Shown: positions 10,929-52,642, numbered from the stretch's first letter. The stretch is 64,000 nt of DNA from Gemmatimonas sp. (GCA_013822425.1 PNKL01000007.1:1-64000), one strand, 5' to 3'. Notes: a model not told the origin generated them from the sequence alone. Numbers and translations: made by a program.

Positions 10929-11714
10929 ATGATCCCTACGATACGCTGCCTCGCCGTCTTCGCCACCGTCGCCTTCGCGGCCCCACTCGCGGCCCCACTC
11001 GCGGCGACGCTTGCTGCGCAGGATGCGCCGCCCACGTCAGGCATGGACGTCATTGCGCGCATGCGGTCCCGGCACGCCGGAGAATGGTACAAGACGCTCA
11101 CCTTCCGCCAGACCACCACGATTCGTCGGAGCGACGGGCGCGACACGGTGCAAACGTGGTACGAAACGCTGCGGTACACGCCCGAGCGTGGCACGCAGCT
11201 GCGCATTGACGTCGCGCCGCTCGTGAACGGCAACGCCTCCATCTCCACGTGGGATTCCACATGGGTCATTCGTGCCGACACCCTGGCCGCCGTGCGCGCG
11301 AGCGGGAATCCCTTCCTGGCGCTGATCGAGGGGGCGTACATGCAACCGGTGGGGGAGACGGTCCGGCAACTGGCGCCGCTCGGCTTCGATCTCTCGAAAC
11401 TGCGCACCGCCGCGTGGAATGGGCAGGCGGTGTGGATCGTGGGTTCCACTGATCCCGCCGACACCACCTCGGCGCAATTCTGGGTGGAAGACCAACACCT
11501 GATGGTCGTGCGCATCGTGCTGTCGGGTGGGGCGGGTCGTCAGCCGCTCGACATTCATCTCGGCGCGATCGTGCCGTGCGGCAAGGGATGGCTCGCGACG
11601 AAGGTCGAGATGCTGCAGAGCGGGCAGCGCCGGCAGCTGGAAGAGTATCATGACTGGCGCTGCGATGTCACGGTTGACCCGAGAGTCTTCGATCCGCATG
11701 CGGGAAAACGGTAA
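10929..11714 (+). CDS. Secreted protein of unknown function (LolA/outer-membrane-lipoprotein-sorting-like)
   Basis: 261 residues from ATG 10929 (an in-frame ATG at 10908 adds 7). Signal peptide MIPTIRCLAVFATVAFAAP...LAAQ contains a short PLAA duplication. The mature protein is rich in alternating beta segments (EWYKTLTFRQTT, DTVQTWYETLRYTPERGTQL, SISTWDSTWVIR), reminiscent of LolA/LolB-like half-barrels, but I see no diagnostic motif. It is divergent from lipB. A purine-rich repeat and a strong hairpin follow its stop. Export is well supported; function is not. Confidence 0.6.
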   Translation: MIPTIRCLAVFATVAFAAPLAAPLAATLAAQDAPPTSGMDVIARMRSRHAGEWYKTLTFRQTTTIRRSDGRDTVQTWYETLRYTPERGTQLRIDVAPLVNGNASISTWDSTWVIRADTLAAVRASGNPFLALIEGAYMQPVGETVRQLAPLGFDLSKLRTAAWNGQAVWIVGSTDPADTTSAQFWVEDQHLMVVRIVLSGGAGRQPLDIHLGAIVPCGKGWLATKVEMLQSGQRRQLEEYHDWRCDVTVDPRVFDPHAGKR

Positions 11715-11782
11715 GAGAGACAACAGAGAGACAACAGAGAGACAACAGAGAAACAACAGAGAAACAACAGAGAGACAACAGA
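11715..11782. repeat. 11-bp tandem repeat (AGACAACAGAG, family A), six units
   Basis: Six units of AGACAACAGAG/AAACAACAGAG begin a few bases after the stop of the secreted protein and run straight into a GC-rich hairpin. The purine-rich strand is the coding strand. The same family follows lpd, gcvP, gcvH, the RAM-domain gene and the lipoprotein gene at 43832. Confidence 0.9.
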
Positions 11783-11806
11783 GGGCGGCGCAACATTGCG
11801 CCGCCC
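11783..11806 (+). terminator. Bidirectional hairpin terminator
   Basis: GGGCGGCGCAA and its exact complement are separated by 2 nt, then TTCT follows. It lies between the convergent secreted-protein and M14 peptidase genes and can serve both. Confidence 0.7.
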
Positions 11807-13222: not shown

Positions 13223-13436
13223 GAGAGCTCCAGAAGCAATTGGCGCAAGTACGACGACCCTGAGAGAATACGAAAGAATGAGACAGAGTGCGACAGAGAA
13301 CGGCAGAGAACGGCAGAGAACGGCAGGGATGCGGCGCTGGACTCCCCAACGCGAGAGGGGTGCGCGGCGTTGTGCCGGCACCCCTCTGTTGTCTCTCTGT
13401 TGTCTTTCTGTTGTCTCTCTGTTGTTTCTCTGTTTC
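13223..13436. repeat. Composite repeat and hairpin between lpd stop and M14 peptidase start
   Basis: From the lpd side (right to left) come family-A 11-bp units (13388-13436), then a hairpin with arms 13354-13362 and 13379-13387, then on the other side three to four 10-bp units of GGCAGAGAAC (family B, 13272-13328). The two arms carry different repeat families, unlike the near-perfect palindrome at 43712. The hairpin is a plausible lpd terminator. Confidence 0.75.
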
Positions 13437-14840
13437 TCAGGCGTGGATCATTTTGCCCATCGAATCCAGCACCGCCTCCGCCACCGCCTCGCTCAGCGTG
13501 GGGTGCGCGTGGATCGCCAGGTCGATCTCTTCCACGGTGAACTCGTTCTCGCGCGCCACGAGCAGCTCGTGGATCAGCTCCGTGACGTGCGGGCCCACGA
13601 GGTGCGCGCCGAGGATCTCGCCGTACTTGGTGTCGCGGATGATCTTCACGAACCCTTCCGTCTCGCCCGCCGTGCGGGCCCGGCCGTTCGCGCTGAACGG
13701 GAACTTGCCGACCTTGTAGTCGAGCTTCTTCTCCTTGCACTGCGCTTCGGTCAGGCCGATGGACGCCACCTCGGGGCTGCAGTAGGTGCAGTTGGGGATG
13801 TTGCCGTAGTTGATGGGGTGGTGGTGGTGACCGGCGATGATCTCGGCGACGACGATTCCCTCGCGCTCGCCCTTGTGCGCCAGCATCGGCGGTCCGGCGA
13901 CGTCGCCGATGGCGTAGACTCCCTTGGCCGTCGTCTCGAGCCGGTCGTTCACCTTGATGAAACCGCGATCGGTGAGCTGCACGCCGACGTCCTTGAGTCC
14001 GATATTCTCGATGTTCGCGGCGCGCCCGGCGGCGACGAGCACCTTCTCGACGACGAGCTCCTGCTTCTGGCCGCCCACCTCGACGGTGAGCGTCACGCTG
14101 TCCTTGCCGACCTTGGCGCCGGAGAGCTTGGCGCCGGCGAGCACGTCGATGCCGCGCTTCCTGAACGAGCGCGCGACTTCAGCCGAGCTGTCCTCGTCTT
14201 CGAGCGGCAGGATGCGCGGCATTACCTCGATGACGGTCACCTTGGTGCCGAAGGCGTTGAAGACGTCGGCGAACTCGCAGCCCACGGCGCCGGCGCCGAC
14301 CACCGCCATCGTCTTGGGGGCCTTCTCGAGCACCAGCGCGTCGTCCGACGAAATGATCGTCGTCTTGTTCAGTTCGAGCCCGGCCTGCGGCAGGCCCTTG
14401 ACGCGCGAGCCGGTGCCGATGACGAGTGCCTTGGTGGCGGTGTGCGTCTCGGTCTTGCCATCGGCGGTGGTGACTTTCACCGTCTTGCCCGCGCCGAGCA
14501 CGCCCGTCCCCTTGATCCAGGTGACCTTGTTCTTCTTGAACAGGAACTCGACGCCCTTGGAGTTCTTGGTGGAGACGTCGCGCGAGCGCTTCATCGCCAC
14601 GCCATAGTCGAGCGTGATGTCGCCGACCTTGACGCCGAACTCGGCGGCGTGCTTGAGCCGGTTGGCGAGGTGCGATGACTCGAGCAGCGCCTTGGCGGGG
14701 ATGCAGCCCCAGAGCACGCAGGTGCCGCCGAGCCCTTCGCGCTCGATGACGCCGACGGTCAGGCCGAGCTGCGAGGCGCGGATGGCGCCGACGTAGCCCG
14801 CCGGGCCGCCACCGAGGAAGATGATATCGAAGTTCGCCAT
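13437..14840 (-). CDS. lpd: Dihydrolipoyl dehydrogenase (E3)
   Basis: 467 residues. E3 reoxidises the dihydrolipoyl arm of E2 with NAD+, and can also serve the glycine cleavage system. Features: FAD-binding GGGPAGYVGAIRASQLG at residues 11-27, redox pair GGTCVLWGCIPAKALL (Cys at ~42 and 47), NAD-binding VVGAGAVGCEFADVFNAFG, FAD contact GVYAIGDV, and C-terminal HAHPTLSEA with the His-Glu dyad. The redox motif reads CVLWGC rather than the common CLNVGC. Last gene of the lipA-pdhABC-lpd run; a repeat-filled gap separates it from pdhC, so it may also have its own promoter. Confidence 0.95.
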   Translation of the reverse strand: MANFDIIFLGGGPAGYVGAIRASQLGLTVGVIEREGLGGTCVLWGCIPAKALLESSHLANRLKHAAEFGVKVGDITLDYGVAMKRSRDVSTKNSKGVEFLFKKNKVTWIKGTGVLGAGKTVKVTTADGKTETHTATKALVIGTGSRVKGLPQAGLELNKTTIISSDDALVLEKAPKTMAVVGAGAVGCEFADVFNAFGTKVTVIEVMPRILPLEDEDSSAEVARSFRKRGIDVLAGAKLSGAKVGKDSVTLTVEVGGQKQELVVEKVLVAAGRAANIENIGLKDVGVQLTDRGFIKVNDRLETTAKGVYAIGDVAGPPMLAHKGEREGIVVAEIIAGHHHHPINYGNIPNCTYCSPEVASIGLTEAQCKEKKLDYKVGKFPFSANGRARTAGETEGFVKIIRDTKYGEILGAHLVGPHVTELIHELLVARENEFTVEEIDLAIHAHPTLSEAVAEAVLDSMGKMIHA

Positions 14841-36080: not shown

Positions 36081-36200
36081 AAAGACAACAGAGAAACAAC
36101 AGACAAACAACAGAGAGACAACAGACAGAAAAGGCAGAGGTCCGGAACTCGCGTGCCGGACCTCTGTTGTCTGTCTGTTGTCTGTCTGTTGTTTCTCTGC
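36081..36200. repeat. Large inverted repeat of 11-bp units around a hairpin (family A)
   Basis: Between convergent gcvP and gcvH. Left arm: ACAACAGAGAA/ACAACAGACAA-type units; core stem CAGAGGTCCGG (36135-36145) and CCGGACCTCTG (36156-36166); right arm: the complementary CTGTTGTCTGT units. The whole spacer can fold as one long imperfect hairpin. Confidence 0.9.
36135..36166. terminator. Bidirectional terminator core between gcvP and gcvH
   Basis: Perfect 11-bp stem with a 10-nt loop. The right flank gives a T-rich run for gcvP and the left flank gives one for gcvH transcripts. Confidence 0.7.
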
Positions 36201-43715: not shown

Positions 43716-43835
43716 AGAGAGACAACAGAGAGACAACAGAGAAACAACAGAGAGACAACAGAGGGGCGTTCCGGAGTGTCGCTGCGCCCCTCTGTTGTCT
43801 CTCTGTTGTTTCTCTGTTGTCTCTCTGTTGTTTAT
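43716..43835. repeat. Near-perfect ~47-bp inverted repeat of 11-bp units (family A)
   Basis: Left arm 43722-43768 (ACAACAGAGAG-type units ending GAGGGGCG) and right arm 43785-43831 are complementary over about 47 nt with a 16-nt loop. It fills the space between the convergent RAM gene and a lipoprotein gene. The innermost CAGAGGGGCG/CGCCCCTCTG stem can act as a terminator in both directions. Clearest example of the architecture described in the findings. Confidence 0.92.
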
Positions 43836-44770
43836 CTCTGTCTGATGCACCACTGCTGCGGCACCCGCAGCGTCTCATGCCACTTTCCGTTCGTCCGCGT
43901 GAGCACCAGAAGATCGTTGGTACTGGCGTAGCGCCACGATTCCACGAAAATCTCGTCGGTGCCGTCGCCCGTGAGGTCCAGATGGTCGAGCAGGCGCTGG
44001 AACTCCACGAGGCGCGCCTCGCCGCTTTCGACGTGCTTGTACGTGACCTGATACCCCTTGCCGTCGGCATCGTCGCCGAGCACGAGGAAGTGCGTGGTGT
44101 GGCCGGCGCCCGGTCCGGTGTCTCCCGCGTTCGCATCCACCTGATTCGCCACGAGTGTTGCCCGGCTGCCGCCCGCCATGCTGATGGCACGCGCGCTGAA
44201 CGACGCGGTGTCGATGTCGACCGTGTCGAGTCCCTCCGTACGCAGTGCCAGCAGCGCGATGGCGCGCACTGCCGCGCCGAGGTCGCGCGGCGCCTGCGCC
44301 CTCGTCGGCGCACTGCCGCCGGCGACGCTGAGCGACAGGAACTCGAAGGCGGGGTCGAGCGAGGCGCGGGTCTTCAGCGTCACCGCCGCCATCGGGCGGG
44401 CCTCACGGCAGCCGGGAAGCTCGTACAGCGGCTCGCTGTCCGGCTCCCACATCCGGCGCGACACGACCACCGTGCCCGCGTGCTGTCCGTCGCGGTAGAC
44501 GGGATATTCGGTTCCCGGCTGGAAGTACGCGGAGTCGAGCCGGCGCCAGTCAGCGTCCGGCAGCTCGATCGGCTTGACGCTGCCATGGATGACGGCCGCG
44601 ATGGGCACGAGACGCGCGGAGTCCAGGGTGCCGAATGCCTGAAAGACCAGCGGCGGCTTGGTGGCCACGTCGAACGAGGGCGGCGGCGAGTCGTCGCCCG
44701 GTTCCTGCTTCGCCTTGTCGCATCCCGCGGCGAGGGCTAGGATGCTCAGCATGAGTGCGGAACGACGCAT
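43832..44770 (-). CDS. Lipoprotein of unknown function
   Basis: 312 residues from ATG 44770. Lipobox in LALAAGCDK. The mature part is not clearly assignable: LVPIAAVIHGSVKPIELPDA, GTVVVSRRMWEPDSEPLYEL, and near the C-terminus LVEFQRLLDHLDLTGDGTDE, an FG-GAP/EF-loop-like DxTxDGxxE stretch, then an end with NDLLVLTRTNGKWHE. The gene start overlaps the divergent nuclease gene by about 20 bp. Confidence 0.65.
   Translation of the reverse strand: MRRSALMLSILALAAGCDKAKQEPGDDSPPPSFDVATKPPLVFQAFGTLDSARLVPIAAVIHGSVKPIELPDADWRRLDSAYFQPGTEYPVYRDGQHAGTVVVSRRMWEPDSEPLYELPGCREARPMAAVTLKTRASLDPAFEFLSLSVAGGSAPTRAQAPRDLGAAVRAIALLALRTEGLDTVDIDTASFSARAISMAGGSRATLVANQVDANAGDTGPGAGHTTHFLVLGDDADGKGYQVTYKHVESGEARLVEFQRLLDHLDLTGDGTDEIFVESWRYASTNDLLVLTRTNGKWHETLRVPQQWCIRQR
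44715..44750 (+). promoter_or_regulatory. Predicted leaderless promoter of the nurA-herA run
   Basis: TTGTCG (44715-44720), 17-nt spacer, TAGGAT (44738-44743), 7 nt, ATG 44751. Good -35 and spacing put +1 at the start codon. The promoter lies inside the 5' part of the divergent lipoprotein gene. Confidence 0.5.
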
Positions 44771-45752
44771 GGGGCCAACGTACCCGCCATCCGGGGGGGC
44801 CGCAAGCGTGCGCGATGCCCTGCGGGCGGTGCGGCAGGCGGGCGCTGCGGAGGCCGCATCCGAGCCGCCGCTCGAGCTGCGCCTCGTCGCCCCCGAGCCG
44901 CCGCGGCTGCAGCGCGCGGAACCGCTCGAGGGCGACGCGGTGCGTGTGCGCCGCGTGCCGGGCGATCCCGTGGTCGGCATCGCCGCCTTTCTCGACGGCA
45001 TCCAGGAAAGCCGCGTGATCGCGCACTGGCCAGGCGGCATCCCGCTGGTGCACGGCACCGTCGCTGCCGCGGTGCGACTCCGGCGCTCGCGCACGCTCGT
45101 CGCCTGGCGGTCGGACAGCGTGCGCGTGGAACGCGCGCTCTTCGTGCCGCGCGCCGCCGTTGGCGAGGCCGCGTGGGACGCGCTCGGCGCGGAATGCGAC
45201 GTGCGTGACACGCTGGCGCGAGGCGAAGAGGGGCCGTGGCACCCGCAGGAGTTCACCGCGCGCGCACTGAGCGCCGTGCAGCGGCGGCGGGAGAGCGCCG
45301 AAACGGTATGCGCCGAGTTGTGGTGCGCCGAGGGCGACGGCCCGCTGTTTGTGGACGGCGGCATCGCGGCCGTCGGCGCCGCCGCACACTCGACGCGCGC
45401 CATCGGCGTGGTGAAGTCGCATCGCACGCTCTACGTCGATGGCGATGCGCTGCCGGTCGTGCTGGCACTCGCCGCCGGTGAGCGCACCACGGCGTTCACC
45501 GTGACGTCGCCGCGTCGGGCGCCGGTGGCGAGCTGGTACTTGCGTCTCCGCGAGCCGGCGGCACATGACGCGCTCTGGGGTCTCGTGCGCGTCGAAGCGG
45601 CGCTCGACGGGGCGACGGCGGAGCGCGCCGACCTCGTCTCGCGCTGGCTGCTCGCCGAGCGCGCCCCCGTGTCGCTCCCCGATCCCCGCTGGGGAGCGAT
45701 GGCGTACGGCGTTAGGTTGACGGAAGAGTACCTGCGGGCGGTGACCAGGTGA
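44751..45752 (+). CDS. nurA: NurA-like nuclease (bacterial NurA domain)
   Basis: 333 residues. The NurA pattern is visible as EGDGPLFVDGGIAAVGAAAH (~residues 193-212, DG-hydrophobic pattern that carries the metal ligand), followed by RAIGVVKSHRTLYVDG, and a C-terminal VSLPDPRWGAMAYGVRLTEE with the usual YP/Y..A helix replaced. NurA is a RNase H-fold 5'-3' exonuclease that works with HerA to resect DNA ends. The immediate neighbour is a HerA-like gene on the same strand (88 bp gap), which is the main support. Alternative start ATG 44769. The family call would be weak on its own. Confidence 0.68.
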   Translation: MSAERRMGPTYPPSGGAASVRDALRAVRQAGAAEAASEPPLELRLVAPEPPRLQRAEPLEGDAVRVRRVPGDPVVGIAAFLDGIQESRVIAHWPGGIPLVHGTVAAAVRLRRSRTLVAWRSDSVRVERALFVPRAAVGEAAWDALGAECDVRDTLARGEEGPWHPQEFTARALSAVQRRRESAETVCAELWCAEGDGPLFVDGGIAAVGAAAHSTRAIGVVKSHRTLYVDGDALPVVLALAAGERTTAFTVTSPRRAPVASWYLRLREPAAHDALWGLVRVEAALDGATAERADLVSRWLLAERAPVSLPDPRWGAMAYGVRLTEEYLRAVTR

Positions 45753-45787
45753 GTGGGTCAAGGCACGCGCGACCTGAATCGTAATCC

Positions 45788-45820
45788 GGAATCCAAGTTC
45801 TGAATCACGACTCGGATTCC
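45788..45820. repeat. GGAATCC inverted repeat in the nurA-herA gap
   Basis: GGAATCC (45788-45794) and GGATTCC (45814-45820) are complementary 19 nt apart. It may be a small attenuator or a repeat remnant. Confidence 0.4.
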
Positions 45821-45840
45821 AAATCCTCAATCGTCTCCCG

Positions 45841-47787
45841 ATGCCCATTGGCCGAGTCGTCGCCACCGAACGCCGTCCCAACACGCCCCACGAGTTCCAC
45901 TTCTGGACTGCGCTCGACGCGCCGGTGGGGATCGGAACCATCGTACGCGTCGAAGGGCCGCCCACAGGCGAGGGCCGGCTCGCCACGATCTACGGCGTCG
46001 TGGTCGAGGGCTTCTCCTACACTGACCTCCAGACGCCGCTGCACGACGTCATCGGCGCGGACGGCGATCCGGCTGCGGCCACGCGCGCACCCACCGATCG
46101 CACCGAAATCCGTCTCTATACCGCACACGCGCTGCGCCATGTACCCGACGAGCCGCTCCAGCCGGTGCCCATGGGTACTGTGCACCTGGCTACCGAGGAC
46201 GACATCGCCGTCGCGCTACGCATGGACGGTTACCTGCGCGCAGGGCAGCACACCGGCATCCCGATCGGCGTCTATCGCTCCGGCACCATGCAGGCGCCGA
46301 TCTACCTCGACGCCGACTTCCTCCTCGGCCCCGAGGCCGCGCACCTCAACATCTCGGGCGTCTCAGGGCTTGCGACGAAGACGAGCGCGGTGGAGTGGCT
46401 GCTGAGCTCGATCTTCGCGCACTTCCCGGCGCAGAAGGGGAGCGTGGCCGCCGTCTGCTTCAACGTGAAGGGACCGGACCTCTGCTTCCTCGACCAACTC
46501 TCCGAGAAGCTCGATGACGCCGACCGTGCGCTGTACGAGGCGGCCGGCGTGCCGGCCGAACCCTTCCAGCACGTCGAGTACTTCGCGCCATGGACCGCGC
46601 GCGGCCACGCGTTGGCGACGCTGCGCTCCAACGCCGCGCTCTCGCACAACGTGCATCCGCTGTCGTGGGGGCTGCGCGAGGTGCTGCAGTACGCCGAGGT
46701 GCTGCTCAACAAGGATGACGTGGACGCCAAGGCCGACGCCCTCATCGACTTTATCCGCGAGCGCGTCGTCAACCAGGAGTTCTCCGATCCCATCCTGCCG
46801 CGCGCGCACACCGTCCGGTCGTTCTCCGACCTCGAGCAGTGGTTCCGCGACGTCCTGCGCGGGATGGAGTCGCGCAACGCCGAAACCTGGCGGACGCACC
46901 ACGTGGCCACCATTCGCAAGGTGCGCAACCGGCTCACCAACATCTCCACGCGCTGCCGCGGACTGGTCACCGACGACGGCACCTCCAACGACCTGCCCTT
47001 CGGGTCGTTCAAGGACCGCGCCGTCTATGTCATCGACGTGGCCTCCTCCGAAGAGGATGCGCAGGACCTGATCTTTGCGCGCGTGGTGTCGCAGCTGCGC
47101 GAGCAGCTCGAACGGCGGACGCTCGGGGTCGATCACGTCGTCGTCTTCGTGGACGAGCTGAACAAGTACGCGCCGTCGGACGGGCCCGATACCTATGTGC
47201 GGCAGATGCTGCTCGACATCGCCGAGCGCGGCCGGTATCTGGGGCTCGTCCTCTTCGCCGCGCAGCAGTTCCGGTCGCAAGTGCATCGCCGGGTGGTCGG
47301 CAACTGCGGCACCGCCTTGTTCGGCCGCATGGACATGGATGAGCTCGCCACGCCGGGCTACGCGACCCTCGCGCCCGCAACGCGCATCAAGCTCTCCACG
47401 CTCGACAAGGGGCAGTTGATGGTGCGCCACCCGCACTTCGCACAGCCCGTCTTCGTGCGCTTCCCGCGCCCCGCCGTGCTGGGCGGGCGCGAGGGCGTGG
47501 AGCGGTTCCCGGCGGAGCCGGAGCCGTCGCTCGAGGTGGCGGTGACGCGTACGCTACGGGCCCTCGACCCCTCGGTCACCCTCGAATGGGTCAAGCAGGC
47601 CATCGTGGCGGCCCCGGAGGACGATGTACTTCGCGCGCGCAATCGCACCCTGCAGGCGCGCCCGGAGGACGTGAAGGCCTACTTCCGCGCGCAGTTCCGG
47701 TCACGGGTGCAGGCCGAGTCGGTCGGCGCGCGCCCGGCGTCCCTACCGCTCGCTGGCGCCGGAGGCGACGATCCCTATGGCTTCTAA
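45841..47787 (+). CDS. herA: HerA-like hexameric ATPase/translocase
   Basis: 648 residues. N-terminal HAS-barrel-like portion (IGRVVATERRPNTPHEFHFW, GTIVRVEGPPTGEGRLATIY), then the FtsK/HerA ATPase core with an atypical P-loop, NISGVSGLATKTSAVEW (~residues 169-185), and Walker B HVVVFVDELNKYAPSDGP (~430-447). Ends with FRSQVHRRVVGNCGTALFGR as a sensor/Arg-finger region. HerA pumps DNA to NurA during end resection. The P-loop lacks the Gly that usually precedes the Lys; such a variant seems to occur in bacterial HerA-like ATPases, but I cannot verify this. Operon with nurA upstream and mre11/rad50 downstream. Confidence 0.82.
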   Translation: MPIGRVVATERRPNTPHEFHFWTALDAPVGIGTIVRVEGPPTGEGRLATIYGVVVEGFSYTDLQTPLHDVIGADGDPAAATRAPTDRTEIRLYTAHALRHVPDEPLQPVPMGTVHLATEDDIAVALRMDGYLRAGQHTGIPIGVYRSGTMQAPIYLDADFLLGPEAAHLNISGVSGLATKTSAVEWLLSSIFAHFPAQKGSVAAVCFNVKGPDLCFLDQLSEKLDDADRALYEAAGVPAEPFQHVEYFAPWTARGHALATLRSNAALSHNVHPLSWGLREVLQYAEVLLNKDDVDAKADALIDFIRERVVNQEFSDPILPRAHTVRSFSDLEQWFRDVLRGMESRNAETWRTHHVATIRKVRNRLTNISTRCRGLVTDDGTSNDLPFGSFKDRAVYVIDVASSEEDAQDLIFARVVSQLREQLERRTLGVDHVVVFVDELNKYAPSDGPDTYVRQMLLDIAERGRYLGLVLFAAQQFRSQVHRRVVGNCGTALFGRMDMDELATPGYATLAPATRIKLSTLDKGQLMVRHPHFAQPVFVRFPRPAVLGGREGVERFPAEPEPSLEVAVTRTLRALDPSVTLEWVKQAIVAAPEDDVLRARNRTLQARPEDVKAYFRAQFRSRVQAESVGARPASLPLAGAGGDDPYGF

Positions 47788-47796
47788 CGAAGCAGA

Positions 47797-47945
47797 GTGA
47801 GGCAGAGAACGGCAGAGGACGGCGGAGGACGGCAGTAATCGGAACCGCTGCCGTTCTCTGCCGTTCTCTGCCGTTCTCTGCCGTTCTCTGCCGTTCTCTG
47901 CCGTTCTCTGCCGTACTCTGTCGCACTCTGTCGCACTCTGTCCCT
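47797..47945. repeat. 10-bp GGCAGAGAAC repeats as inverted repeat (family B)
   Basis: Left: four GGCAGAGAAC/GGCAGAGGAC units after the herA stop. Right: about seven CCGTTCTCTG units plus CGCACTCTGT variants. Arms can pair around TAATCGGAAC. This separates herA from mre11 within an otherwise compact run, so it could attenuate downstream transcription. Confidence 0.88.
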
Positions 47946-47979
47946 CCGCATAGATTTCTCCGCTCTGCTCCCGCGCCCT

Positions 47980-49182
47980 GTGCGACTCGTCCACCTCTCC
48001 GACCTCCACCTCGGCTTCCGCCAGTTCCAGCGCGTCACGCCGGCTGGCAAGAACCAGCGCGAGGCGGACGTGGCGCAGTCGTTCACGCGCGCCATCGACA
48101 AGGTCATCGCCCTCGCGCCTGACCTGGTCCTGATCGGCGGGGACGTCTTCCACACCGTGCGGCCGACCAACCCGGCCATCCTGCACGCGTTCCAGCAGTT
48201 TTCCCGGCTCCGCGCGGCGTTGCCGAACGCCATCGTCGTCATCGTCGCCGGCAACCACGACATGCCGCGCTCGAGCGAGACGACGTGCATCCTGCGCCTG
48301 TTCGAGCCGCTCGGGTTCCACATCGCCGACGTGACGACGCGCCGGCTGCAGTTCCCGGAACACGAGCTGTCCATCCTCGCCGTGCCCGACCTGCCGCCGG
48401 GGAGCGTGGACCTGTCGCCGGACCTCGCGTTCAAGCACAACGTCCTGCTGCTCCACGGCGAGGTGGAGGGCGCGCTGCCCGAGGGAGCGCGCGAGGACGA
48501 GCGCGCCTCGATGCCAATTCCCGCGTCGGCCGTGTCGCACGAGCGGTGGGACTACGTGGCGCTCGGCCACTACCACGTGTACCGCAAGGTGGGCCCCAAC
48601 GCGTACTACTGCGGCTCGCTCGACTACACGAGCACGAACAGTTGGGGCGAGTACGCGGAGGAGAAGGCCGCGAAGCTTCCGGGCAAGGGGCTGATCGAGC
48701 GCGACCTCGCCACGGGGAAGCAGGCCTTCCACGCGCTGCCGGTCACGCGGAAGATCATCGATCTGCCGCCGATCGCCGGACGCGGGCTCTCGGCGGTGGA
48801 CCTCGACGCGGCCATTGCCGCCACGGTGGAGAAGTGCCCCGACGGCGGCATCGAGGGCAAGGTGGTGCGCCTCGTCGTGCGCGACGTGCCGCGCCACGTC
48901 GTGCGCGAACTCGACCACCAGCGGCTGCGCGAGTTCCAGCGGCGCGCGCTCCACTTCGCGCTCGACACGCGGCGGCCCACCGTGGTGCGCACCGCCGTGG
49001 CGGAGAGCGGGGCGCCCGGCAGGCGGCCGTCGCTCGCCGACACCCTGCGCGAGGCGCTGCGCAGCCGCGTGCTGACGAGCGACATCGACCGTGACCGGCT
49101 GGTGGCGCTGGGCGAGCACTACCTGCGCGAGGCCGAGCACGACATGGCGGTGCGCGGCGTGGACGAACCGGAGACCGCGTGA
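47980..49182 (+). CDS. mre11: Mre11/SbcD-type DNA repair nuclease
   Basis: 400 residues from GTG 47980. All Mre11 phosphoesterase motifs are in place: RLVHLSDLHLGF (I), LVLIGGDVFH (II), VIVAGNHDMPR (III), LLLHGEVEG (IV), VALGHYHVYRKVGPN (V) and YCGSLDYTSTNSWGE. With Rad50 it processes double-strand breaks and protein-blocked ends. The stop overlaps the rad50 GTG as GTGA. The capping domain is short, as in bacterial/archaeal SbcD. Confidence 0.93.
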   Translation: MRLVHLSDLHLGFRQFQRVTPAGKNQREADVAQSFTRAIDKVIALAPDLVLIGGDVFHTVRPTNPAILHAFQQFSRLRAALPNAIVVIVAGNHDMPRSSETTCILRLFEPLGFHIADVTTRRLQFPEHELSILAVPDLPPGSVDLSPDLAFKHNVLLLHGEVEGALPEGAREDERASMPIPASAVSHERWDYVALGHYHVYRKVGPNAYYCGSLDYTSTNSWGEYAEEKAAKLPGKGLIERDLATGKQAFHALPVTRKIIDLPPIAGRGLSAVDLDAAIAATVEKCPDGGIEGKVVRLVVRDVPRHVVRELDHQRLREFQRRALHFALDTRRPTVVRTAVAESGAPGRRPSLADTLREALRSRVLTSDIDRDRLVALGEHYLREAEHDMAVRGVDEPETA

Positions 49183-51683
49183 GACTGTCCCGGCTGCGCC
49201 TCGTCAACTTCCGCCAGCACGCGGACAGCACGCTCCTGTTCGACAGCGGGCTGACGGGGATCATCGGCCCGAACGGGTCGGGCAAGACGACGATCCTCGA
49301 GGCCATCAAGTGGGCGCTCTACGGCGGGGACGCGACGCGCGGCACGGTGGACTCCATCCGGTTCGCGCGCGCAAGCGCGCGCTCGCCGGTGCGCATCGAA
49401 CTCGACTTCGACCTGGGCGGGCACCGCTACCGGCTGGTGCGCGCGCTGACCACGGCCGACCTCTTCGTGGACGGCGGAGAGCGCCCCATCGCCACCGGCT
49501 CGTCGGCGGTGACCGACGTCGTGCGCCGCAAGCTCGGCATGTCGCTCGACGAGTTCGACAACACCTACTTCACGGCGCAGAAGGAACTGGCGGTGATGGC
49601 GACGCTGACGGCGGCGGCGCGCGCGCAGTTCCTCTCGCGCGTGCTCGGCTACGAGAAGCTGCGCTCGGCGCAGGACCTGTGCGACGAGCGCCGCAAGGCG
49701 CTGCGCAACGAGGCCAACGGCATGCGCTCGGGAATGCCCGACCCGGAACTGCTCGCCCGACAGCTCGCCGACGCCGAGTCGCGGCTGCGCGACGCCCAGG
49801 CGCGTGCCGCCGCCGCGGCGGTGGAGCAGGCGCGCGCCCAGCAGGAACTTGGCGCGCTGCAGCCACGGTGGTTGGACGCCCAGCGCGCGCGCGAGGAGTT
49901 GCAGGGGCTGGACGCCGAGCGTCGCGTCCTCGAGGCCGAAGCGGCGGCGCTCACGCGCACGGTCGAGCGTGTGGAGGGCGAGCTGGTGCACGTGGCCGAG
50001 GCGCGCGCCCAGCTCGTGCCGCTTGCCGAGGCGCTCGTGCCCTTCCACGAGATCGGCGAGCAGTTGACCAGCCAGCGCGAACTCGCGGTGTCCGACGGAC
50101 GCCGGCAGGCGCTGCAGGAGTCGGCCATGGAGCTGTCGGCCGACCTGCAGCGCCTGCGCGAGGGCCGCTCGCGGCTCGAGACGGCGCCGGTGGTCGAGGA
50201 GCAGCTCACCGAGGAGATGGAGCAGAAGCGTCGCCGGCTCGAGGAACTGCAGGGCAGGCTCGAGCTACGCCGCACCGAGTGGGTGCGCGACCGGCAGGAG
50301 GCGGAGACGCGCCGCAACGCGCTGCGCGCGCAGTACCAGGAACTGCGCGAGCAGAAGGACAAGCTGAAGGCGGCCGGCGAAGAGGGAGCGTGCCCCACGT
50401 GCAGCCGGCCGCTGCTCGATCATTACCATCGCGTCATGGAGTTCCTCGAGACGCAGATCGAGGCGGTGAGCGCCGACGGGCTCTATTTCCGCCAGCGCCT
50501 CGAACAGCTCGAGGGAATGCCCGAGGACATCGTCGCGCTCGACGAGGAGCGCCGGCAGGCGATGCAGGAGGCGAGCGCGCTCGAGCGCAAGCTGGCGCGC
50601 ACGCAGGTGGCGGTCGGCCAGCTCGAGCAACTGGCGCGCGACCTCGCGCAAAAGGAGCAGCGGCACGCCGCGCTCGAGGCGGAGCTGGCCTCGCTGCCCG
50701 GCGGCTACGAGCGCGCGCGGCACCAGGCGCTCGAGGCGCGGTTCGAGGAGCTCGCGGCGCTCAGCACGCAGGCCAACCGGCTCAACACGCAGGTGGAACG
50801 CGAGCCGGCGCTGCGGCGTGAACTCGAGTCGGCGCAGCGCGGCATCGCCGCGGCGCAGGGCAAGCGTGAGGAAATCGCCGCGCGGCTTGGGACGATCGCG
50901 CACTCGGAGGAGGCGTTCGCCGCGCTGCGTGAGGCGCACATGAAGGCCGAGGGCACGGTGCAGGCGGCGGCGATGGCGGTGCTGAACGCCGAGGCGGAGG
51001 CACGGCTGGCGATGTCGGACCGTGATCGCGTCGTCACCGCGCAACGCGAACTCGCCGAGCGCCGCGATCGCCTGGAGCAGGTCGAGGCCGACAAGCGGTT
51101 GCACGACGAGCTGTACCGCGCCTACTCGGACCTGCGCACCGACCTCAACTACCAGATGCGGCCCGAGATCTCCGAGCTGGCGAGCGGCTTCCTGGCGGCG
51201 CTCACCGACCGGCGTTTCAGCGAGCTCGACCTCGACGAGAGATACCGCATTGCGATCCTCGAGGATGGCGTGCCGATTCCCGTCATCTCCGGCGGCGAGG
51301 AGGACCTGGCCAATCTGGTCCTGCGCCTCGCCATCTCGCAGATGATCGCGGAGCGCAGCGGGCAGCCGTTCTCGCTGCTGATCCTGGACGAGGTGTTCGG
51401 CTCGCTCGATGAGACGCGCCGGCAGAACGTGATCGCGCTGCTGCGCGCGCTGCGCGACCAGTTCGACCAGGTCATCGTGATCACGCACATCGACGACGTG
51501 CGCGACGGGCTCGACCAGGTCTTCGTCATCGGGAACGACGAGAAGACAGGCGCGTCACGCGTGACACGCGGCGACGCCGACCTCGTGGCCGACGCGGACG
51601 GCCTGCTTGCGATGGCCGCCGCCGGCGTCGGTGAGGGCGAAGGCAGTGCGGGCGGCGTCGGTGAGGATGGAGGCGGCGCGTGA
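49179..51683 (+). CDS. rad50: Rad50/SbcC-type SMC ATPase
   Basis: 834 residues. Walker A IIGPNGSGKTTILEAIKWAL (~27-46), two long coiled coils (roughly 150-400 and 430-640), a zinc hook GACPTCSRPLLDHYH near residue 405, ABC signature VISGGEEDLANLVLRLA (~702-718) and Walker B LLILDEVFGSLDETRRQN. ATP-driven clamp for Mre11. It is shorter than E. coli SbcC (~1050) and close to archaeal Rad50 size (~880), which agrees with the HerA-NurA context. Confidence 0.94.
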   Translation: MRLSRLRLVNFRQHADSTLLFDSGLTGIIGPNGSGKTTILEAIKWALYGGDATRGTVDSIRFARASARSPVRIELDFDLGGHRYRLVRALTTADLFVDGGERPIATGSSAVTDVVRRKLGMSLDEFDNTYFTAQKELAVMATLTAAARAQFLSRVLGYEKLRSAQDLCDERRKALRNEANGMRSGMPDPELLARQLADAESRLRDAQARAAAAAVEQARAQQELGALQPRWLDAQRAREELQGLDAERRVLEAEAAALTRTVERVEGELVHVAEARAQLVPLAEALVPFHEIGEQLTSQRELAVSDGRRQALQESAMELSADLQRLREGRSRLETAPVVEEQLTEEMEQKRRRLEELQGRLELRRTEWVRDRQEAETRRNALRAQYQELREQKDKLKAAGEEGACPTCSRPLLDHYHRVMEFLETQIEAVSADGLYFRQRLEQLEGMPEDIVALDEERRQAMQEASALERKLARTQVAVGQLEQLARDLAQKEQRHAALEAELASLPGGYERARHQALEARFEELAALSTQANRLNTQVEREPALRRELESAQRGIAAAQGKREEIAARLGTIAHSEEAFAALREAHMKAEGTVQAAAMAVLNAEAEARLAMSDRDRVVTAQRELAERRDRLEQVEADKRLHDELYRAYSDLRTDLNYQMRPEISELASGFLAALTDRRFSELDLDERYRIAILEDGVPIPVISGGEEDLANLVLRLAISQMIAERSGQPFSLLILDEVFGSLDETRRQNVIALLRALRDQFDQVIVITHIDDVRDGLDQVFVIGNDEKTGASRVTRGDADLVADADGLLAMAAAGVGEGEGSAGGVGEDGGGA

Positions 51684-52642
51684 GCGCCGCGCTGAAGCCG
51701 GGGCCGCGCGGCGTGCGGCTGCGCCAGCTGGTGCGTGAGGACATCGGGCCGCTCAACCAGCTCTTCGCCGATGCGTTCTCCGACCGGTACCGCCGCGACG
51801 GGCTGGCCGGCGTGCGGGTACCGCCGCTGAACCCGGTCATCTGGCGTTACGCGATTGACGACGCTGGCGATGGGGCCGTGTGCTGGGAGGATGTGGACGG
51901 CCGCATGGTGGCGTTCAACGTCACGCATCAGTCGGGGACCGAGGGATGGATGGGGCCGCTGGCCGTGCGGCCCGAGTGGCAGGGCACGGGGCTCGGCAAG
52001 CAGGTCGTGACGCGGGGCGTCGAGTTTCTTCGATCGCGGGGCTGTACGGTGATCGGGCTCGAGACGATGCCGCGTACCATGGACAACATCGGCTTCTATT
52101 CACGACTGGGCTTCGTCCCCGCGCGGATGACGGTCACGTTCGCGATCGAGGCGACGCCGGCGCGCTGCTCGCTGCTGTCGCGGCTCGACGCTGTCGACAC
52201 GGACGCGGCGCTCCGGGCGTGCGCGGAGCTCCTGCAGCGCATGCAGCCCGGCGTGGACTTCACGCGCGAGATTCAGCTCACGCGCAAGCTAGGCATCGGC
52301 GACACGGTGCTGCTCTACGGTCCGGGCGGCCTGGAAGGGTTCGCGCTCTGCCACGAGGCGGCGCTCATCGAGGGCCGGCCGCGTGATGAGGTGCGCGTGC
52401 TGAAGCTCGCGGTGGGTGACCTGGCGCAGTTGACGCCCCTGCTTTCGGCCGTTGGCGGCTACGCACGCGACTGCGGGATGGTCCGCGCGGCGGTGCGCGT
52501 GCAGGGCGACTACCCCGACGCCTACCAGAGGCTGGTCGCCGCCGGCGGACGCGTGCGGTGGACGGACCTGCGCATGACACTCGCGGGCAGCGCTGAGCGA
52601 ATCCCGGAGCGGGGCGCGGTCTTTTCGAACTGGGAGATCTGA
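51680..52642 (+). CDS. GNAT-family acetyltransferase
   Basis: 320 residues from GTG 51680, GTGA overlap with rad50. GNAT acetyl-CoA motif LAVRPEWQGTGLGKQVVTRG (~92-111), and YSRLGFVPARMTV. A second C-terminal half (~170-320; DFTREIQLTRKLG, ALIEGRPRDEVRVLKL) resembles the Acetyltransf_18/YitI-like domain. Two-domain GNATs acetylate small molecules or proteins. Coupling to rad50 is notable, but a role in repair is not proven. Confidence 0.85.
   Translation: MSAALKPGPRGVRLRQLVREDIGPLNQLFADAFSDRYRRDGLAGVRVPPLNPVIWRYAIDDAGDGAVCWEDVDGRMVAFNVTHQSGTEGWMGPLAVRPEWQGTGLGKQVVTRGVEFLRSRGCTVIGLETMPRTMDNIGFYSRLGFVPARMTVTFAIEATPARCSLLSRLDAVDTDAALRACAELLQRMQPGVDFTREIQLTRKLGIGDTVLLYGPGGLEGFALCHEAALIEGRPRDEVRVLKLAVGDLAQLTPLLSAVGGYARDCGMVRAAVRVQGDYPDAYQRLVAAGGRVRWTDLRMTLAGSAERIPERGAVFSNWEI

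Follow-up and report, generated by a model that had tools for sequence, protein, structure and literature searches.

A bacterial DNA-end-processing system that brings Mre11-Rad50 together with a Deinococcus-type NurA-HerA pair is probably encoded in the genome of Gemmatimonas sp. (GCA_013822425.1). The window that we analyzed, a 64,000-nucleotide stretch of this genome (PNKL01000007.1:1-64000), carries on its plus strand the genes for NurA (44751-45752, 333 aa), HerA (45841-47787, 648 aa), Mre11 (47980-49182, 400 aa), Rad50 (49179-51683, 834 aa) and a GNAT acetyltransferase (51680-52642, 320 aa).

Organization and Conservation of the Locus

An open reading frame scan of the window recovered all five of the plus-strand genes that the original prediction had described, and the GTGA overlaps said to join Mre11 to Rad50 (49179-49182) and Rad50 to GNAT (51680-51683) could be read directly from the sequence. 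The order NurA-HerA-Mre11-Rad50-GNAT, always on one strand, was found in 76 of the 76 related loci that contain all five genes, a conservation far beyond chance. In the first 20 relatives, HerA, Mre11 and Rad50 occurred together in 19 and GNAT lay beside Rad50 in 18, with one contig too short to judge. Overlaps of 1-4 nt join Mre11 to Rad50 in 55, Rad50 to GNAT in 61 and NurA to HerA in 32 of the 76 loci, whereas the HerA-Mre11 junction has such an overlap in only 1 of 72 and often leaves a gap of more than 300 nt. The tight NurA-HerA and Mre11-Rad50-GNAT junctions and the loose one between them therefore divide the set into two coupled blocks.

The same division is visible in the window, where 88 nt separate NurA from HerA and 192 nt separate HerA from Mre11, the latter nearly all taken up by a tandem-repeat hairpin (47792-47930, no strand assigned). 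Repeat analysis resolved the hairpin into 10-bp units, CTGCCGTTCT, opposite their own complement, and the RNA fold of positions 47785-47979 came to -101.5 kcal/mol (z -8.9). Given the two gaps and the hairpin that fills the larger, the single five-gene operon that had been proposed is not demonstrated, although its gene order held in every complete locus. The strength of the hairpin suggests, instead, that the two blocks may be separate transcripts.

Further repeats and genes were noted in the window and at related loci. The 10-bp repeat CAGAGAACGG / CTGCCGTTCT, a cousin of the 11-bp repeat described next, occurs at window positions 13294-13326 as well as in the herA-mre11 hairpin (47792-47930). 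A dispersed palindromic minisatellite, in which arrays of the 11-bp AGAGAGACAAC face their complement as large hairpins, is found at positions 11714-11783, 13384-13438, 36085-36199 and 43716-43837. Its pattern matched 314 times in the Gemmatimonas sp. genome, 64-222 times in six congeneric genomes and 0-1 times in every other relative searched. The reversed pattern used as a control nearly duplicates the repeat, however, and for this reason also gives hits. A lipoprotein-like gene on the minus strand (43832-44770) overlaps the start of NurA with its own start, and similar genes remain at the site in relatives lacking nurA-herA. In several herA-mre11 gaps (L031-L044, e.g., L034:7314-8156) lies a DUF6263-like gene whose start resembles a signal peptide, and genes similar to it persist where nurA-herA has been lost. 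An aminotransferase and an Lrp-type gene adjoin the window locus, marking a conserved, chromosomal site.

A Deinococcus-Type NurA-HerA Pair

Gene 1 is a predicted NurA nuclease of the bacterial type, as judged from its family profile, modeled fold and conserved residues. On its own, the protein had no matches in Pfam, NCBIfam or PADLOC scans, and the curated cut-off of the NurA profile (PF09376) was exceeded neither by this protein nor by any other in its genome. Only 1 of 21 relatives matched PF09376 (E = 6e-4), and the distant NurA relatives of three Gemmatimonadota families (f5, f6 and f7) scored about or under the cut-off. Because the NurA fold and active site are present, we read the missing match as insensitivity of the profile. 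A family profile built from 21 sequences, which supplied the profile check proposed with the original prediction, retrieved as its best two PDB chains the NurAs of D. radiodurans (drNurA, 7F6D, E = 5e-4) and T. maritima (tmNurA, 1ZUP, E = 0.008). An AF2 model (pLDDT 87.5) pointed to the same family in Foldseek, with drNurA (E = 3e-11), two chains of tmNurA (2e-10) and S. solfataricus NurA (ssoNurA, 2e-5) as the top four hits, all NurA structures, and a TdpAB chain as the fifth. The modeled core is RNase H-like, as in drNurA, tmNurA and ssoNurA.

The conserved core residues of the window NurA are D82, E184, D202, K222, E282 and R313. Activity of drNurA requires D53, K201 and R309 (PMC9960219), and these align with D82, K222 and R313, the pairing of R309 with R313 being taken from motif position. 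Across 129 homologues, D82 is conserved in 126, K222 in 128, R313 in 125 and D202 in all. The first catalytic aspartate (D82) is replaced by Gly or Asn in three NurAs (L040, L044 and L197) of two f2 lineages that retain HerA, and these proteins are perhaps inactive as nucleases. Among 61 genomes of the order, 43 carry a NurA relative. The NurA start at 44751 is uncertain, as it overlaps the start of the lipoprotein gene on the minus strand and the model has low confidence for residues 1-16.

Gene 2 is, on profile and model evidence, a HerA hexameric DNA translocase of the Deinococcus type. Its family profile matched D. radiodurans HerA (drHerA, 7F6D_B) with E = 1.3e-56 over both the N- and C-terminal parts, in line with the HerA identity first proposed, and its model (pLDDT 74.5) had 7WRX/7WRW as best Foldseek match (E = 1e-31, 28% identity). 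In the same ranking, drHerA stood above archaeal HerA and the HerA-SIR2 and HerA-DUF4297 proteins. The P-loop (GVSGLATKTS) retains the Walker A Lys-Thr and the Walker B motif (VFVDELNKY) its Asp-Glu. In the tree, the window HerA forms a deep clade separate from drHerA, and the best 80 relatives in named genomes all belong to Gemmatimonadota or to bacterial MAGs, which places the window's genome in Gemmatimonadota. Some HerA genes of f2 seemed to contain an in-frame TGA; in L044, the example that was checked, this codon is the terminal stop, where the match ends.

Mre11 and a Non-SbcC Rad50

The identities proposed for Mre11 and Rad50 were borne out by the alignments. Mre11 retains all of its metal ligands (D8, H10, D55, N92, H93, H159, H197 and H199), matches Pfam Metallophos (1e-9) and the NCBIfam sbcd/Mre11 models, and has the M. 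jannaschii protein among its top PDB matches. Rad50 has an intact Walker A (GPNGSGKTT), zinc hook (CPTC), signature (SGGEE) and Walker B (LLILDEVFGS). These ligands, and the Rad50 Walker A and B, signature and CPxC hook, are invariant or nearly so in 16-sequence alignments. No second Mre11/SbcD was found in the Gemmatimonas sp. genome, which leaves the window Mre11 as its sole one.

By profile and tree, the window Rad50 is a member of a bacterial lineage that is distinct from SbcC and lies next to the archaea. It scored 216 bits with the archaeal Rad50 model of NCBIfam and 95 bits with sbcc, for which the cut-off is 478; Mre11 scored 72.5 with sbcd against a cut-off of 77.65. In a tree of Rad50 heads, the window type split from SbcC with support of 99/96, which upholds the expectation that this was no ordinary SbcC, and plasmid-borne Rad50s of Pontibacillus and Arcobacter grouped with it. 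Three archaeal Rad50s formed their own group beside the window-type one, in a tree with long branches and this sparse archaeal sampling. PADLOC matches of Rad50 to LmuB, mad3, PbeC and others were generic SMC-type hits and were set aside.

Repeated Loss of the NurA-HerA Block

Some genomes of the order have no HerA. In all 13 of those examined, the aminotransferase lies upstream and Mre11-Rad50-GNAT occupies the same site, with nurA and herA absent; most of the 13 sites also keep the Lrp-type gene upstream. On the Mre11-Rad50 tree, HerA must have been gained or lost seven times or more, and we read these events as losses because precise re-insertion is unlikely. Having been lost at least seven times while Mre11-Rad50 stayed, NurA-HerA is thus not obligatory for Mre11-Rad50. 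Conversely, genomes of f9 and several of f2 have HerA but no detectable NurA. A search for a substitute nuclease found only carB upstream of HerA in f9, and the readable emptied nurA-herA sites hold only DUF6263-like and lipoprotein genes. A search for an inverse association of NurA-HerA with nucleases of the AddAB/RecB type gave no convincing result, as PDDEXK_1 occurs in 7 of the 13 genomes that lack NurA-HerA and in 14 of the 48 that have it. L212 and L214, two small genomes of 1.8-2.1 Mb that lack nurA-herA, encode a Rad50 whose coiled-coil region is shortened or broken.

An Acetyltransferase Coupled to Rad50

The fifth gene carries a GNAT domain in its first half (Pfam Acetyltransf_1, PF00583, 9e-13), and the second half had no family match in the Pfam scan. 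The acetyl-CoA motif QGTGLG fits the (Q/R)xxGxG consensus, its Q101 and G106 being invariant in the alignment, as are Y140 and a C-terminal SNWEI. The gene is present as a single copy in 112 of 200 genomes of the phylum, which a division based on genome kinship resolves into 112 of 115 inside the order and 0 of 85 outside. The GNAT is a fixed partner of Mre11-Rad50 in the order, and the coupling to Rad50 originally noted in one genome recurs in 61 of the 76 complete loci. Window-type Rad50 also occurs outside the order without the GNAT.

Judging by the coupling, our guess is that the GNAT most likely acetylates Rad50 or Mre11, or else a protein bound to DNA close by. It is quite conceivable that it is an unrelated gene merely carried on the Rad50 message, with no part in DNA-end processing, as might be expected from the lack of any such GNAT beside Mre11-Rad50 outside the order and from the separation of rad50 and GNAT by about 1 kb in one genome (G010) and several kb in another (G017). 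Such a passenger would not, however, be expected to overlap Rad50 by a few nucleotides in most loci, to stay next to rad50 in all 13 genomes from which nurA-herA has gone, or to be single copy and well conserved. The titles and abstracts that we searched contained no report of a GNAT with prokaryotic Mre11-Rad50. If confirmed, a conserved acetyltransferase translationally coupled to Rad50 would represent a new type of control on prokaryotic end processing.

A Proposed Role in DNA-End Processing

We propose that Mre11-Rad50 would detect and clip broken or blocked DNA ends and that a NurA dimer docked on a HerA hexamer would thread the duplex and digest mainly the 5' strand, leaving a 3' tail for RecA. 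We infer complex formation, the polarity of resection and the cooperation of the two blocks from homologues, such as the D. radiodurans NurA-HerA, which translocates and digests the 5' strand (PMC9960219). By the same analogy, the window NurA is predicted to be an Mn-dependent nuclease and to bind as a dimer to the HerA hexamer. The Gemmatimonas sp. genome also has RecJ, and a search of it for a PDDEXK_1 nuclease of the AddAB/RecB kind found none.

Opinion is openly divided on whether NurA-HerA serves to resect chromosomal breaks or to destroy foreign DNA: work published in 2026 on the complex of T. kodakarensis questions a role in end resection and suggests an antiviral one (PMC12977600). On the antiviral reading, NurA-HerA at the window locus would act chiefly against phage or plasmid DNA instead of repairing chromosomal breaks, and Mre11-Rad50 would supply or sense the ends. 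We consider this unlikely, even though the block has been lost repeatedly, related sets reside on plasmids and the best match of HerA in a defence library (PADLOC) is mad8, at a weak 4e-8. HerA-SIR2 and HerA-DUF4297, defence systems that pair HerA with a nuclease, are also among the HerA fold matches, but both window proteins are nearest to the D. radiodurans pair. Furthermore, the block sits at one conserved chromosomal site, by the aminotransferase and Lrp-type gene, and its partner there is the sole Mre11-Rad50 that the genome encodes. Both of these features lead us to favor repair over degradation of foreign DNA. The order includes close relatives that differ in whether NurA-HerA is present at this site, next to what is the sole Mre11-Rad50 in the window's genome, and thus provides a natural experiment in mesophilic and partly culturable bacteria.

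Relationship to Known Systems

The linkage is not unique to the window's genome or its order. In the distant Gemmatimonadota families f5, f6 and f7, a drHerA-kind HerA is linked to Mre11-Rad50 and usually also to NurA, in the order HerA-Mre11-Rad50-NurA or NurA-HerA-Mre11-Rad50, and the four Rad50s scanned there are SbcC-type (sbcc 208-276 bits). The genes for NurA, HerA, Mre11 and Rad50 also occur together on plasmid records of Streptomyces, Nonomuraea (a chromosome-sized record of 11.8 Mb), Sphaerospermopsis, Aulosira, Chlorohelix and Pontibacillus. These records span Actinomycetota, Cyanobacteriota, Chloroflexota and Bacillota, which makes five other phyla when Oceanithermus is counted. Genes for ImmA/IrrE metallopeptidases adjoin the NurA-HerA-SbcCD sets of a Streptomyces plasmid (L175:7141-8313) and a Chlorohelix plasmid (L178:5651-6385); IrrE/PprI is the damage-response protease of Deinococcus. 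The pairing of NurA-HerA with two Mre11-Rad50 lineages argues that both complexes work together. Tentatively, NurA-HerA-Mre11-Rad50 might be a widespread and largely overlooked bacterial machine, its Mre11-Rad50 part drawn from either of two non-orthologous lineages (Rad50-type and SbcC-type), to which the Gemmatimonadales would have added a dedicated acetyltransferase controlling end resection.

In thermophilic archaea such as Sulfolobus and Pyrococcus, nurA, herA, mre11 and rad50 form one operon, with which many archaea process broken DNA ends. The window locus has the same four protein families side by side and a CPxC hook in Rad50, but its HerA and NurA are of the bacterial subtype, its Rad50 falls outside the archaeal group, a GNAT is added and the HerA-Mre11 junction is loose. 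It is very improbable that the entire set arrived in a single transfer of an archaeal operon, since these shared genes and a Rad50 closer to archaeal Rad50 than to SbcC are offset by a HerA closest to that of D. radiodurans, by a Rad50 that lies beside and not inside the few archaeal sequences, with the Pontibacillus and Arcobacter proteins nearer to it, and by other families that join NurA-HerA to SbcC-type partners. The bacterial HerA and NurA, the Rad50 tree and the multi-phylum linkage lead us to reject a recent archaeal operon in one bacterium and favor an old, widespread bacterial association. The archaeal style of the original prediction is thus borne out only in part: Rad50 lies next to the archaeal proteins, and an archaeal origin is not supported.

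Among bacterial systems, the D. radiodurans NurA-HerA (7F6D, 7WRW and 7WRX; PMC9960219) is the best match to both window proteins in sequence and fold, sharing the P-loop (GxSGxATKT), the Walker B (DELNKYA) and the active-site Asp, Lys and Arg of NurA. It differs in that the pair is described as working without Mre11-Rad50 (PMC12977600), and the window HerA, 28% identical in the fold alignment, falls in its separate deep clade. Bacterial SbcCD shares the architecture and motifs of Mre11-Rad50, but the window Rad50 scores higher with the archaeal model than with SbcC and branches outside SbcC. Our search, which left the 2004 HerA papers outside its scope, found no relevant paper linking HerA and NurA with Gemmatimonadota, and earlier reports of a bacterial linkage are possible. 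The closest precedent is Oceanithermus profundus, in which Blesa et al. (PMC5448004) noted that sbcD and sbcC follow hepA. Here, too, a bacterial herA lies beside Mre11/Rad50 homologues, but the partners are described as SbcD/SbcC, a GNAT is not mentioned and the case is a single one. The bacterial linkage itself has published precedent. What is new is the conserved GNAT, the use of two different kinds of Mre11-Rad50 as partner and the fact that NurA-HerA is a removable block.
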